Positions 29,370 through 57,086 of a stretch of DNA of 64,000 bases are shown here, one piece after another. The notes beneath the pieces were generated by a model that made no database searches, was not told the DNA's origin, and was given only the letters and a program-made list of their open reading frames with translations. This DNA comes from Marinobacterium lutimaris (GTDB lineage: Bacteria > Pseudomonadota > Gammaproteobacteria > Pseudomonadales > Balneatricaceae). Position numbers and translations under genes: made by a program. The stretch spans positions 372,001 to 436,000 of the forward strand of contig NZ_FNVQ01000004.1 of assembly GCF_900108065.1 (NCBI RefSeq), read 5' to 3'. Within the stretch, counting starts at the first letter, position 1, and every line of letters begins with the position of its first letter.

Positions 29370-29442
29370 TCAGGCTTCGTCTCTCGTATTCAGCTCTCGT
29401 GTTCGGCTCGCTTATTCAGCTCTCTTATTAAAAAACCATGGC

Positions 29443-34689: not shown

Positions 34690-34761
34690 AAAGAGTTTCA
34701 AACTGCTGGTTTGAAACTGCCGGTTTGAAACCAAAAGGGCCGACCGCCCGGCCGGCCCTTT
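34690..34761 (-). promoter_or_regulatory. Hairpins between uehA and uehB
   Basis: A 9-bp stem (AAAGGGCCG, 34734-34742; CGGCCCTTT, 34753-34761) is followed on the minus strand by TTTT. Next to it lie three spaced copies of a GTTTCAAAC/GGTTTGAAAC repeat at 34695-34732 that can form alternative stems. This suits partial termination or 3'-end protection after the binding-protein gene. Confidence 0.6.
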
Positions 34762-50303: not shown

Positions 50304-50598
50304 GTTTTTAGTTTAGACGATGCTGAACTAACCGATAGACAGGCCTCTGCCACCGAAAGCCCTGATGAATCCGGCCGGGGGCGCACCTCAGGGCGAAAAT
50401 GATTCGCACTGTGCGAAAAGATATCGGCGCGTCATGGCCAGGAAATGCTGATCGACTATTCTTCATTTGGGCTGCCTGGAGGCAGTACCAAGGAGAGACT
50501 CTGCTCTCTCAGGGATATCAACCTGCGGAATATTAACCGGCTGATAGCAACGCAGAAGCATGATCAGCGGTTCAGATATGGCTGTTAAGGAGAACGAA

Positions 50599-50874
50599 AT
50601 GAGAAAGATTGCACTGGCTTTCGCGCTGACCCTGGCCGCTTCATCAGCGTCGGCGGACCTGCTGGATCCCGACTGCAACGCCGAAAAGGTCGCCAAGGGT
50701 GCGGTCGCTAAATCCACCATCGGCATCGGCGGCCGTTGCACACCGGCCGAGGCCGCCAAGGATATGGCTGCAGACAAGGTCGAGGACAAGCTTCCGGATG
50801 GCAAGGTGATGGACAAGATCGAAGAGAAGAAAGAGCCATCGGTGAAAAAGGCGGTTAAGAAGGCGATGGATTAA
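50599..50874 (+). CDS. Small exported protein of unknown function
   Basis: A 91-residue protein with a clear signal peptide (cleaved after ASA, about residue 19). The mature part has two cysteines (DPDCNAEK, GGRCTPAE) and a lysine-rich, helical C-terminal half (KVEDKLPDGKVMDKIEEKKEPSVKKAVKKAMD). AAGGAG precedes the ATG at 6-7 nt. The stop codon TAA runs directly into the terminal hairpin of the tRNA-linked repeat array. No family is recognised. Confidence 0.7.
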   Translation: MRKIALAFALTLAASSASADLLDPDCNAEKVAKGAVAKSTIGIGGRCTPAEAAKDMAADKVEDKLPDGKVMDKIEEKKEPSVKKAVKKAMD

Positions 50875-50889
50875 CCCCCATCGGGGGTT
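50873..50889. terminator. Hairpin at the distal end of the repeat array
   Basis: A 7-bp stem AACCCCC / GGGGGTT with a 3-nt loop. It could end transcription of the small exported gene or, on the other strand, of the tRNA-repeat transcript. There is no long T-run. Confidence 0.45.
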
Positions 50890-51300
50890 CTCACCCTCCA
50901 GGCGTAGGAATGCTTTGTGAGCTTTAGTGCGGACCGGAAGATAAGGTCGGTCGAGAAAATGGTGCAAATGGAGCTGGAGGGATTACTCGGCTACGCCTCG
51001 CCCTGCGGGTCGTTGCCTGCGGCAACGCTGTCTCGCTTCGCTCGGCTCGAATCCCTATCGGGGGTTCTCACCCGCCAGGCGTAGGAATGCTTTGTGAGCT
51101 TTAGTGCGGACTGGAAAATAAGGTCGGTCGAGAAAATGGTGCAGATGGAGCTGGAGGGATTACTCGGCTTCGCCTCGCCCTTCGGGTCGTTGCCTGCGGC
51201 AACGCTGTCTCGCTGCGCTCGGCTCGAACCCCATCGGGGGTTCTCACCCTCCAGGCGTAGGAATGCTTTGTGAGCTTTAGTGCGGACTGGAAGATAAGGT
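50876..51300 (-). repeat. Tandem 177-bp repeats downstream of tRNA-Arg (rtT-like)
   Basis: Copies at 50876-51052, 51053-51228 and a partial one at 51229-51300 have periods of 177 and 176 bp and differ at only about eight positions in the two full copies. Each full unit ends, in tRNA orientation, with GTAATCCCTCCAG...CACCATTTT, resembling the tRNA 3' end (GAATCCCTCCAGGCGCGCCA). A GTTGCC / GGCAAC stem is inside. E. coli tyrT carries comparable 178-bp repeats (rtT RNA) with tRNA 3'-end fragments. No protein gene is supported here. Confidence 0.85.
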
Positions 51301-51314
51301 GGAGCTAGGAAAAA

Positions 51315-51391
51315 TGGCGCGCCTGGAGGGATTCGAACCCCCGACCAACAGGATCGGAACCTGCTACTCTATCCAGCTGAGCTACAGGCGC
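51315..51391 (-). tRNA. tRNA-Arg(CCG)
   Basis: A complete 77-nt cloverleaf on the minus strand: acceptor GCGCCTG / CAGGCGC, discriminator G, encoded CCA, D-stem GCTC, anticodon stem GCAGG / CCTGT with loop TTCCGAT (anticodon CCG) and T-arm GGGGG-TTCGAAT-CCCTC with one G-U pair. It closely resembles E. coli tRNA-Arg(CCG). It is a single gene, with tandem repeats directly downstream. Confidence 0.97.
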
Positions 51392-51544: not shown

Positions 51545-52267
51545 ATGACCTACTGCGTGGCGATGCGACTGGCTGAAGGGCTGGTTTTTGTGGCCGATTC
51601 CCGCACTAATGCGGGTGTGGATAACATTTCAACTTTCCGCAAGCTGTTCTCTTTTGGCAACGGCAAGGATCATGCACTGGTGCTGCTCAGCGCCGGTAAT
51701 CTGGCCACCACCCAGAGTATCGTCGAGTTGCTGAAACGGCGTATCAACGAGGCTGAAGAGAACCTGATGACGCTGCCGTCCATGTATGACGAAGCGGCGT
51801 ATATCGGCAAGCTGATGCGCGAGATTATCGAGCGCGACACCCACAATCAGCAGGGCCAGGGCGTGGACCTGGGCTGTTCACTGCTGCTCGGCGGCCAGAT
51901 CCGCGGCGAGGAGCCGCGCCTGTTCCTGATCTATCCACAGGGCAACTTTATTGAGGCCAGCATCGAAACGCCGTTCCTGCAGATTGGCGAGTTCAAATAC
52001 GGCAAGCCGATTCTCGACCGTATCATCGATTTCAACACGCCGCTGGAAACCGCGATGACCTGCGGCCTGATTTCGATGGACTCCACCATCAAGAGTAACC
52101 TAACGGTGGATCTGCCAATCGACGTGCTTACTTATGAAAAGAACAGCTTCAGCCTTGAGCGCACCCGCCAGCTGGGCAGCGAAGATGCCGAGTTCCTGGC
52201 GCTGCGCAAAGCCTGGGGTGAAGGGATCAAGGAACTGTTTAACCAGTTGCCGCGTACAACCCTGTAA
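51545..52267 (+). CDS. anbu: Anbu, bacterial proteasome-related peptidase
   Basis: A 240-residue beta-subunit-like Ntn hydrolase. The sequence begins MTYCVAMRLAEGLVFVADSRTNAGVDNISTFRK, the family signature. Thr2 becomes the N-terminal nucleophile after Met removal, with Asp18 and Lys34 at the usual catalytic positions. Anbu forms open helical rings of unclear cellular role. It usually clusters with an ATP-grasp protein, an alpha-E protein and a transglutaminase-like gene; none is here, since the neighbours are tRNA-Arg and cytochrome c5. A ribosome site is weak (TACCTGAGAGCG). Confidence 0.92.
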   Translation: MTYCVAMRLAEGLVFVADSRTNAGVDNISTFRKLFSFGNGKDHALVLLSAGNLATTQSIVELLKRRINEAEENLMTLPSMYDEAAYIGKLMREIIERDTHNQQGQGVDLGCSLLLGGQIRGEEPRLFLIYPQGNFIEASIETPFLQIGEFKYGKPILDRIIDFNTPLETAMTCGLISMDSTIKSNLTVDLPIDVLTYEKNSFSLERTRQLGSEDAEFLALRKAWGEGIKELFNQLPRTTL

Positions 52268-55316: not shown

Positions 55317-57029
55317 ATGCTGGCATTTGACCAGGCAACACACGACAGTGACAACGATCAGCAACAGCTGTTGCTGCTAGATCCCACAGCCCGGCTTGAG
55401 CCGCTGCTGCAATCGGTATTGATACCGACGGACGGCTTCCGTCTGCAGGCGTGCGCCAGCACGGAGGATATCGAAAAGAAGCTGTCGAGCGGAGCATTGC
55501 TGCTCTGCTACACCAACGATAAACCCGCACTTCAGAACCTGATCAAGCGGGTACAGCTGGCTCATCCCGGCATGCCGATCATCGTCTTCAACGATCATCT
55601 GGCCGAAGCCGATCCATCGCTGCTGATCCGCCAGCCGCTTATCGACCAACTCAGCCTGAAAAAGCTCGACCGTGACCTGCTGCTGCGTTCACTGCGCTAC
55701 GCCCAGTGCACCCGCCGCAGCCAGGACGCCCTCGCCCAGTTAAAAATTACCGACCCGCTTACCGGTGTGGGTAACCGTCAGTACTTTTACCAGGCACTCG
55801 TTAATGAGCTGCATGAAAAGCAGCAGCTGGCTCTGATCACCGTCGACTTCGACAGTTTCAGCCGCTTCAACAATGAATTCGGCCACGACGCCGGTGATGA
55901 AGTCGTGTTGGAGCTGAGCCGTCGCCTGCGCAGTTTCGGCGAAACCCGGCATATTTCCCGCATCGGCAGCGACGAATTCGCCTTTATTCTGCCGGTGGAA
56001 GAAGCCGATGTAATTGAGCACCGCACCAAGGGGCTCCTCGGTGAACTGATCGCCGCGCTTATGCCGGCATACAACATCGGTGATGGTGAAAAGACGCTGA
56101 GCTGCAGTATCGGCGTTGCCTACTCGCCCCAGCACAGCAGCGAATTTGACACCCTGATCAAGCAGTCCGGCCTGGCGCGAACCCGCGCCAAACAGAAGGG
56201 CGGACTCAGCTACGCTATCTACGATACCCGTCTGGATCGCAGCGAAAACGAGGATATCACGCTGGAGCCCGAGCTCTGGCGCGCCCTGCAGAACGAAGAG
56301 TTCGTGCTTTATTATCAGCCCCGCATCGATCTGCGCACCGGCTGCATCACCGGCGCTGAAGCGCTGATCCGGTGGGAGCATCCGGTCCACGGACTGATCC
56401 CACCGGACTCATTTATCCCTGCCTGCGAAAAGTCAGGCCTGATCGTGCCGATCGGCTACTGGGTCATCCAGCGCGCCGGCCGCGATATGAAGCTGATCCG
56501 CGAGGCTGGGCTGCACGGTCATATCGGCGTGAACCTGTCGTTCCGCCAGTTCCAGGACACCTATCTGGCGCGCACCATCGAGCGTCTTATAGAGCAGTTC
56601 GATATCGACACCTCGATGCTGGAGTTCGAACTTACCGAAACCGCGCTGTTCAGCGACGAGATGCACGTCAAGGAATGCATCAAGACCCTGAGCGCCCACG
56701 GCATCGCCTTCTCGCTGGATGATTTCGGTACCGGCTACTCCTCGTTCTCGCTGCTGCAGAAACTGCCGATCACCACGCTTAAGATCGACAAGAGCTTTAT
56801 CGCCGGTGTACCCGGCAACCCCGATGATGAAGAGATTGTCCGCGCCATCGTCACCCTTGCGCATAACCTGCAGAAGAGCGTGATCGCGGAAGGGGTGGAA
56901 ACCAAGAACCAGCTGGAGTTCCTGATCAAACAGGACTGCGACCAGGTCCAGGGCTACTTCTTCAGCCCGCCGGTGAGCCTCGACGTGTTCCTGAAGATGC
57001 TCGGAACCAACCAGCTGCAAAGCGGCTGA
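55317..57029 (+). CDS. Cytoplasmic c-di-GMP protein with pseudo-receiver, GGDEF and EAL domains
   Basis: A 570-residue protein. The first ~130 residues look like a receiver fold without clear phosphorylation residues (LLLLDPTARLEPLLQSVL, PIIVFNDHLAEADP, LIRQPLIDQLSLKKLDRD). A GGDEF domain (~143-300) has RIGSDEF at 215-221, a GSDEF variant that can be active. The EAL domain (~315-560) keeps GAEALIRWEH, VNLSFRQF, ELTETALF, LDDFGTGYSSFSLL, KIDKSFIAG and AEGVETKNQLEF, so phosphodiesterase activity is expected. No transmembrane segment is present. AAGGA precedes the ATG. Confidence 0.9.
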   Translation: MLAFDQATHDSDNDQQQLLLLDPTARLEPLLQSVLIPTDGFRLQACASTEDIEKKLSSGALLLCYTNDKPALQNLIKRVQLAHPGMPIIVFNDHLAEADPSLLIRQPLIDQLSLKKLDRDLLLRSLRYAQCTRRSQDALAQLKITDPLTGVGNRQYFYQALVNELHEKQQLALITVDFDSFSRFNNEFGHDAGDEVVLELSRRLRSFGETRHISRIGSDEFAFILPVEEADVIEHRTKGLLGELIAALMPAYNIGDGEKTLSCSIGVAYSPQHSSEFDTLIKQSGLARTRAKQKGGLSYAIYDTRLDRSENEDITLEPELWRALQNEEFVLYYQPRIDLRTGCITGAEALIRWEHPVHGLIPPDSFIPACEKSGLIVPIGYWVIQRAGRDMKLIREAGLHGHIGVNLSFRQFQDTYLARTIERLIEQFDIDTSMLEFELTETALFSDEMHVKECIKTLSAHGIAFSLDDFGTGYSSFSLLQKLPITTLKIDKSFIAGVPGNPDDEEIVRAIVTLAHNLQKSVIAEGVETKNQLEFLIKQDCDQVQGYFFSPPVSLDVFLKMLGTNQLQSG

Positions 57030-57086
57030 ATCAACTGCCTACTGAATCAACCGCCCACTTAATTAACCACCTACTGAATCAACCGC
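57027..57086 (+). repeat. Short degenerate tandem repeat after a GGDEF/EAL gene
   Basis: Nearly four copies of a 15-17 bp unit (TGAATCAACYGCCYAC) begin at 57027, 57043, 57060 and 57075. The first unit includes the stop codon TGA of the upstream gene and the last runs into the comM stop. This is slippage-prone spacer DNA with no apparent function. Confidence 0.55.

Follow-up and report, generated by a model that had tools for sequence, protein, structure and literature searches.

In the window, a 64,000-nucleotide stretch of Marinobacterium lutimaris DNA, a tRNA-Arg(CCG) gene is followed by a tandem array whose units carry pieces of that tRNA, which raises the question of what kind of repeat this is and how it comes to match the gene in front of it. 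The host gene lies on the minus strand at 51315..51391 (ARAGORN; Rfam tRNA, 64.1 bits), with its 3′ CCA at 51315-51317, and the repeats lie downstream of it in the minus-strand reading. Tandem Repeats Finder placed the array at 50876-51300 (period 177, 2.4 copies, 95% matches, score 785). A repeat search of the window returned two 177-nt copies, 50873-51049 and 51050-51226, that are 95% alike, together with three occurrences of an 84-nt segment (50876-50959, 51053-51136 and 51229-51312); 50876-51052 and 51053-51229 are identical at 168/177 positions. The choice of unit boundary decides which piece counts as partial; read from the tRNA onward as RtT elements, the array comprises two complete elements and a third that ends past its antisense arm and hairpin. 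ARAGORN, Tandem Repeats Finder and Rfam agree with the original prediction of a tRNA-Arg(CCG) followed by two full and one partial 177-bp copy, and the array coordinates it gave are correct. Tandem Repeats Finder also reported four other short tandem repeats in the window, at 1781-1831, 29381-29429, 34695-34731 and 57026-57086, with periods of 21, 13, 14 and 16.

In minus-strand order, a unit consists of an antisense arm, a split T-arm copy, a core, a partial copy of the tRNA 3′ half and a trailer. The stretch from the tRNA to the first antisense arm is trailer (51258..51314; minus strand, as are all features of the array). RtT copy 1 (51143..51267) has its antisense arm, CGCCTGGAGGG TGAG AACCCCCGA, at 51234..51257; this arm is the reverse complement of the T-arm of tRNA-Arg and of some of its acceptor strand, with TCG of the loop replaced by GAG. 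The second T-arm copy is interrupted between TTCGA and ATCC by a core of ~63 nt, located at 51161..51223 in copy 1. RtT copy 2 (50966..51091) has its antisense arm, CGCCTGGCGGG TGAG AACCCCCGA, at 51058..51081, and the cut-off copy 3 retains an antisense arm and its hairpin (50868..50904). The predicted tRNA 3′-end fragments are present as the 11-nt sense copy AATCCCTCCAG, found in the tRNA at 51323-51333 and in both complete copies, at 51151..51161 in copy 1 and 50974..50984 in copy 2. Beyond these 11 nt the copies diverge from the tRNA (CTCCATCTGCACCATTTT vs GCGCGCCATTTTT), the remainder of the acceptor copy in copy 1 being eroded. The fold of copy 1 (51146-51260) has a z of -3.17; that of copy 2 (50969-51084) is weaker, with a z of -1.82, and some of its pairs are non-standard in the Rfam alignment. 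The end of the array, in copy 3, overlaps the stop codon of a small ORF that converges on it (50560-50874, plus strand), and a divergent ORF 153 bp from the tRNA start (51545-52267, plus strand) matches Pfam Proteasome (PF00227, E 3.1e-8).

Both complete copies matched Rfam RF00391 over the full model length, with scores of 100.7 and 89.3 bits (E 5.4e-21 and 3.5e-18) against a curated cut-off of 45 bits, and the first match begins 48 nt past the end of the tRNA, on the tRNA strand. With such scores, well past what chance would give, the array is not a look-alike of RtT; it belongs to the RtT family, the family of E. coli rttR. The locus was thus rightly described as rtT-like and tRNA-linked, RF00391 matching behind tRNA-Arg(CCG), and wrongly as not obviously related to rtT in sequence. 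The same match rules out an independent evolution of the repeat, the other possibility raised in the original prediction, in which it would merely resemble rtT. That the tRNA and the species differ speaks for such an origin, which nevertheless has practically no chance of being right, since model R2, for which the window supplied part of the input, matches E. coli tyrT and rrnB as well.

The family is tied to many tRNAs. Within the same genome, RtT also occurs behind tRNA-Ser(GGA) (73.5 bits) and twice behind tRNA-Tyr(GTA) (46.6 bits and 44.5 bits, the latter just below the cut-off), and all five RtT matches of this genome are behind tRNAs. We searched RF00391 at four taxonomic levels. Positives numbered 6/8 genomes in the genus at an E limit of 0.001 and, at 1e-5, at least 16/145 in the order, 45/369 in the class and 38/398 in the phylum; these sets overlap, and in those above 40 genomes few candidates were scored, so that the positives are lower bounds. 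E. coli was the sole positive of 14 control genomes. All 180 distinct matches listed, from 98 genomes, were examined: a same-strand tRNA lies upstream, at most 876 nt away, in 162, the hosts being Tyr, Ser (four anticodons), Lys, Gln, Pro, Arg, Val, Glu and Asp. Nine of the remaining 18 sit less than 400 nt from a contig end and three are behind tmRNA; judged by eye, two begin in a tRNA-Lys gene, three are cores in split tRNA copies and one follows a tRNA-Ser fragment. Eight of the 180 matches, including all four Val rows, begin inside a tRNA-Lys gene and are doubtful as RtT. Linkage to tRNA-Arg alone is ruled out by the Ser, Tyr and other hosts, and the unit does not, as had been asked, always follow tRNA-Arg(CCG), either in its own genome or elsewhere.

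A model made from 55 units, R1, found 152/369 class genomes at E 0.001, a number to be set against the 45/369 of RF00391 with care, as the limits are unequal (0.001 vs 1e-5) and the R1 E-values rough. From the top of its class listing we took a second set of 72 matches absent from the first: 64 have a same-strand tRNA within 1,200 nt, five are near contig ends and three are without a tRNA. Split tRNA-Arg genes were encountered in two relatives. In Marinobacterium mangrovicola (L169), other DNA, from ~2,100 up, splits the syntenic tRNA-Arg(CCG) and leaves its 3′ part ahead of an RtT remnant; by look, this DNA bears putative Mrr-like and HNH-like genes. In Neptuniibacter pectenicola (L177), RtT likewise lies behind the 3′ part of a split tRNA-Arg. 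Among 10 of the 47 matching phage records, nine matches lie on tRNA-Arg genes and one belongs to a Salmonella genome that is filed under phages and has an RtT RNA annotated. Ten of the 156 matching plasmid records were viewed and several are chromosome-sized; of two matches opened, one has the chromosomal purU-narI neighbourhood and the other no annotated gene in the stretch.

The two tRNA-derived ends of the unit are matched to the host. The unit end is usually a copy of the 3′ end of its own host tRNA, positions 59-76, and the unit start is usually an antisense copy of host positions ~48-69, in a positional profile of 118 first copies from which Val rows and long matches were dropped. Over positions 59-76, the 3′ copy has an identity of ~0.9 to its own tRNA, compared with 0.23-0.67 to other tRNAs. 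Among 137 first copies (those within 100 nt of a tRNA, four doubtful rows being kept), the direct copy matched its host better than it matched 95% of other-isotype tails in 123, and the antisense arm did so in 111. In the second set, with 49 first copies, the direct copy passed in 49/49 and the antisense arm in 34/49; the antisense test was failed by 26/137 and 15/49 copies respectively. Among genes of a single anticodon, 71 copies had three or more different tails available for comparison, and the own tail was better than the mean of the tails of other genomes in 70/71 for the direct copy and 66/71 for the antisense arm. Sequence comparison thus indicates that both arms follow the individual tRNA gene, also where several genes share an anticodon, and suggests that RtT-type repeats rebuild part of themselves to fit whichever tRNA precedes them.

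Evidence for structure was sought in a sequence-only alignment of the 55 units, the structure being extended from an RNAalifold prediction on the same alignment. In all, 87.8% of alignment cells pair. Cells changed on both sides numbered 182, compared with a shuffled mean of 58.5 (reached by 0/500 shuffles) and no more than 70 with slid partners. Covariation of the outer stem in the family needs care, because this stem is copied from the host tRNA, and the core stems are the cleaner evidence of structure: both-side changes occur in 6/6 pairs of core helix 3 and 4/4 pairs of core helix 5, neither of them tRNA-derived, and in none of the hairpin formed with the T-arm copy. We conclude that the core stems of RtT covary. 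This covariation, the tracking of the host by the antisense arm and the occurrence of the core across the class (152/369 genomes, R1) all count against the view of the array as a neutral tandem duplicate of a tRNA 3′ end, with structure and matching that mean nothing. That view, which we regard as very improbable, would account for the erosion of the window copies, for homogenised trailers and for a freely variable copy number.

Trailers are indeed alike within many loci, and copy number does vary. The trailer after the tRNA resembles that after an RtT unit (score of at least 15) at 65/115 loci, compared with 2% for random pairings. At the orthologous Arg(CCG) locus, inspected by eye in eight Marinobacterium genomes, three have complete units (two and a part in the genome under study, one each in G001 and G004), two have remnants and three have none. 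In 60 E. coli records, taken at even steps from 5,391, there were 0-5 RtT copies annotated at the best place of each, which may miss part of an array: none in 8 records, one in 17, two in 10, three in 10, four in 14 and five in 1. In E. coli PD23, purU, two tRNA-Tyr genes and narI are present with no RtT, and the 34-nt inter-tRNA spacer matches, at 33/34 positions, what follows the first RtT in K-12; on this comparison the junction reads as a clean zero-copy state. In E. coli p4A, by annotation, tRNA-Tyr is followed by other genes and no RtT. A copy-number change of a 175-bp rtT unit is described for Salmonella in the accessible text of PMC2658671. The suggestion that the repeats spread by unequal recombination fits these observations, copy number in relatives varying as such recombination would give.

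We consider it probable, with some reserve, that the array represents tandem RtT units in the 3′ trailer of tRNA-Arg, made by read-through, varied in copy number by recombination and having at most a weak function. RNA polymerase running past the tRNA would make the repeat RNA, which would fold as a closed multi-helix RNA and be freed during tRNA maturation. Northern signals have been reported for two RtT-family RNAs in Actinobacillus (PMC4986893, accessible text). Because the units are bracketed by tRNA 3′-end copies, recombination between these copies could gain or lose whole units and leave the tRNA unharmed. The same recombination would hold the sense copy similar to the tRNA, and the antisense arm would then follow the host, because pairing is kept. 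No terminator-like hairpin was found between tRNA-Arg and the repeats in the window. Across the family, one is present between tRNA and RtT at 47/115 loci (1.75 expected from shuffles), after RtT at 37/115 (2.9 expected) and in both positions at 33/115; with 47/115 trailers having such a hairpin before RtT, much of the family may need read-through. These hairpins count against the explanation, and so do the first copies that fail the antisense test, the doubtful matches that begin inside tRNA-Lys and, in the window, the short tRNA-end copies and the poor fold of copy 2. Any function of the repeat RNA would presumably be weak and non-essential.

A stronger role has been considered for such RNAs, in which RtT is a functional regulatory RNA: its antisense arm would engage the precursor of the host tRNA, or the released RNA would bind a global regulator, so that its output follows tRNA or rRNA synthesis. 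The host-specific antisense arm and the covarying core would suit this role, and so would the read-through sRNAs, of ~173 and 115 nt, that three E. coli rrn operons make from repeats lying between their two terminators (rrA, rrB and rrF) and that bind Hfq and CsrA (PMC8144298, accessible text). Nevertheless, deletion of rrA, B and F had modest effects, and the claim regarding the stringent response was retracted, both as stated in the accessible text of PMC8144298; one table of an sRNA overexpression screen, its headings lying outside the accessible text, lists RttR at 97% with no marked change (PMC4606813). Two natural E. coli strains, PD23 and p4A, are without RtT at tyrT (repeats at other loci may remain), and 3/8 congeners are without RtT at the Arg locus. 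We therefore judge a regulatory role improbable. With gene-by-gene host matching, the antisense arm and natural strains with 0-5 copies, it can be asked directly if this RNA has an effect on its own tRNA or is only carried along.

The core is also found outside the usual tRNA trailers. The core-only model R2 matched 65 places in 12 chosen genomes, and we viewed 40, chiefly those outside the Rfam set. Seventeen have a same-strand tRNA upstream (ARAGORN). By eye, three split tandem tRNA-Gln copies, one splits a D-loop, four bear copies of tRNA tails, either at the edges of contigs or along arrays, and two break tRNA-Phe T-loop copies with the core inverted. One is behind a 5S rRNA gene; it has a direct 3′-end copy and an antisense arm that scores 28, a value reached by 0.25% of mononucleotide shuffles. 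Eight belong to a dispersed element of one genome, of which 6/8 copies have both inverted ends, up to two mismatches being allowed, and four have no recognisable RNA gene. The matches of R2 to E. coli include the spacer after 5S in K-12 rrnB (39.8 bits), where a direct 5S copy is present; an antisense arm is absent from this element (score 12 vs a shuffled mean of 13.1).

Some of these places have an unusual arrangement. The dispersed element, of ~0.3 kb, is present in eight copies in a single-contig genome (G272; L214, L219-L224 and L227), with inverted ends CCGGATATTGCACCAAGG and the RtT core mid-element. In the same genome (L226, G272:C1:489797-493299), three tandem tRNA-Gln-like copies, each with one core in its T-loop, lie upstream of an intact tRNA-Gln. 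Elsewhere (L059, G413:C141), a tRNA-Ser(GCT) copy with RtT-like cores in the D-loop and T-loop lies directly upstream of an intact tRNA-Ser(GCT). In the M. lutimaris genome, the pattern CCCGMAGGGYGAG has four sites, two inside the array and two elsewhere; the latter were rejected as core copies, with no tRNA near and surroundings that are not RtT-like, and by eye we judged them chance matches in coding sequence. Copies scattered away from tRNA genes, which would have argued against a tRNA-linked function, are therefore not seen in this genome, and cores without an RNA gene do exist in some others. Such cores do not fit a purely tRNA-bound repeat and count against the read-through and recombination explanation that we prefer.

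They raise the possibility, which we hold doubtful but worth weighing, that RtT is a small selfish element whose mobile core inserts at GA|A sites in the loops of stable RNAs, above all the T-loop, the host-matching arms being the scar of insertion in duplicated 3′ ends. Such an element would explain cores that split T-loop copies between TTCGA and ATCC, the tRNA-Ser copy split in both loops and two more tRNA copies split in the T-loop, the three tandem tRNA-Gln splits, the two tRNA-Phe copies with an inverted core, the eight dispersed copies in one genome, six of them within an inverted-end element, and a patchy presence among close relatives. Against it, no carrier was identified and no recombinase was seen among the five neighbouring ORFs searched against Pfam, viral contigs gave no match to the one exact pattern searched, all five matches in the M. 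lutimaris genome are behind tRNAs, and the dispersed element may merely have captured a core.

Tentatively, and well short of the confidence we place in read-through and recombination at the tRNA-Arg locus, RtT could be the most frequent version of a portable, structured RNA module that spreads to the 3′ ends of stable RNA genes (tRNA, tmRNA and 5S rRNA), both in the Gammaproteobacteria and in one or more further classes of the phylum. For each host gene the module would be rebuilt, one arm being antisense to the 3′ end of that gene and the other a copy of it, and one product of the process would be the dual terminators of some rRNA operons. The host-matched antisense arm, the tracking of individual tRNAs, the tmRNA hosts and the core outside RNA genes may be new. 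We did not find these four points in the accessible text of open-licence papers, a scope apart from the older literature (Egan and Landy 1978, Rudd 1999, Bosl and Kersten 1991 and 1994).

Several described systems bear comparison. An RtT-type core in another genome (L232; G741:C55, 1491-1577, minus strand) scored 35.4 bits against Rfam AaHKsRNA22 (cut-off 39.8), which may be the same module under another name; we found no paper on AaHKsRNA22 in the open-licence literature. In the accessible text of the respective papers, rtT-like elements appear among interspersed repeats (PMC2965389), a tandem GA motif is described in RtT (PMC7657543), and rttR is listed as REP-bearing with citation of Bosl and Kersten 1991 (PMC12306157, PMC11623569). 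Arrc20 and Arrc21 of Actinobacillus pleuropneumoniae are RtT-family RNAs that likewise adjoin tRNA genes, but the tRNAs are Asn and Lys and, in the accessible text, the RNAs are described as upstream of them (PMC4986893). The E. coli elements termed 'tRNA-linked repeats' (TLRs) were described first in 1978 and comprise 22 elements at 10 loci, rrA, rrB and rrF among them (Rudd 1999; Egan and Landy 1978, as cited in PMC8144298); they had no accepted function at the time of PMC8144298, as far as its accessible text goes. Like the array, they lie behind a tRNA or rRNA gene and carry a copy of its 3′ end. That text names an 18-19 bp sense copy only; an antisense arm matched to the host, tmRNA as a host and tracking among genes of one anticodon do not appear in it. 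The strict TLR definition combines a 3′ end identical over 18-19 bp to that of the upstream tRNA or rRNA gene with an array of one to five copies immediately after this gene; the array has two complete copies and one cut off in that position, and only 11 contiguous nt of identity. In a congener (G001), the orthologous single copy reads ATCCCTCCGGGCGCGCCA, matching its own tRNA. The array is therefore RtT and a decayed TLR-type repeat, not a strict TLR; tRNA-end copies down to 11 nt and the poor folding of copy 2 suit such decay. Its closest counterpart is E. coli rttR at tyrT-tyrV, where K-12 has four RtT matches of 133-138 bits. Both share the covariance model, the tandem layout, a first copy ~45-48 nt past the tRNA and a T-arm-derived outer stem, and the unit of 177 bp compares with 178-nt steps between K-12 copies 2-4. 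Unlike rttR, the window array has tRNA-Arg(CCG) as host, a tRNA-end copy of 11 identical nt and a truncated third copy, and it adds a partly decayed member to the known RtT family.
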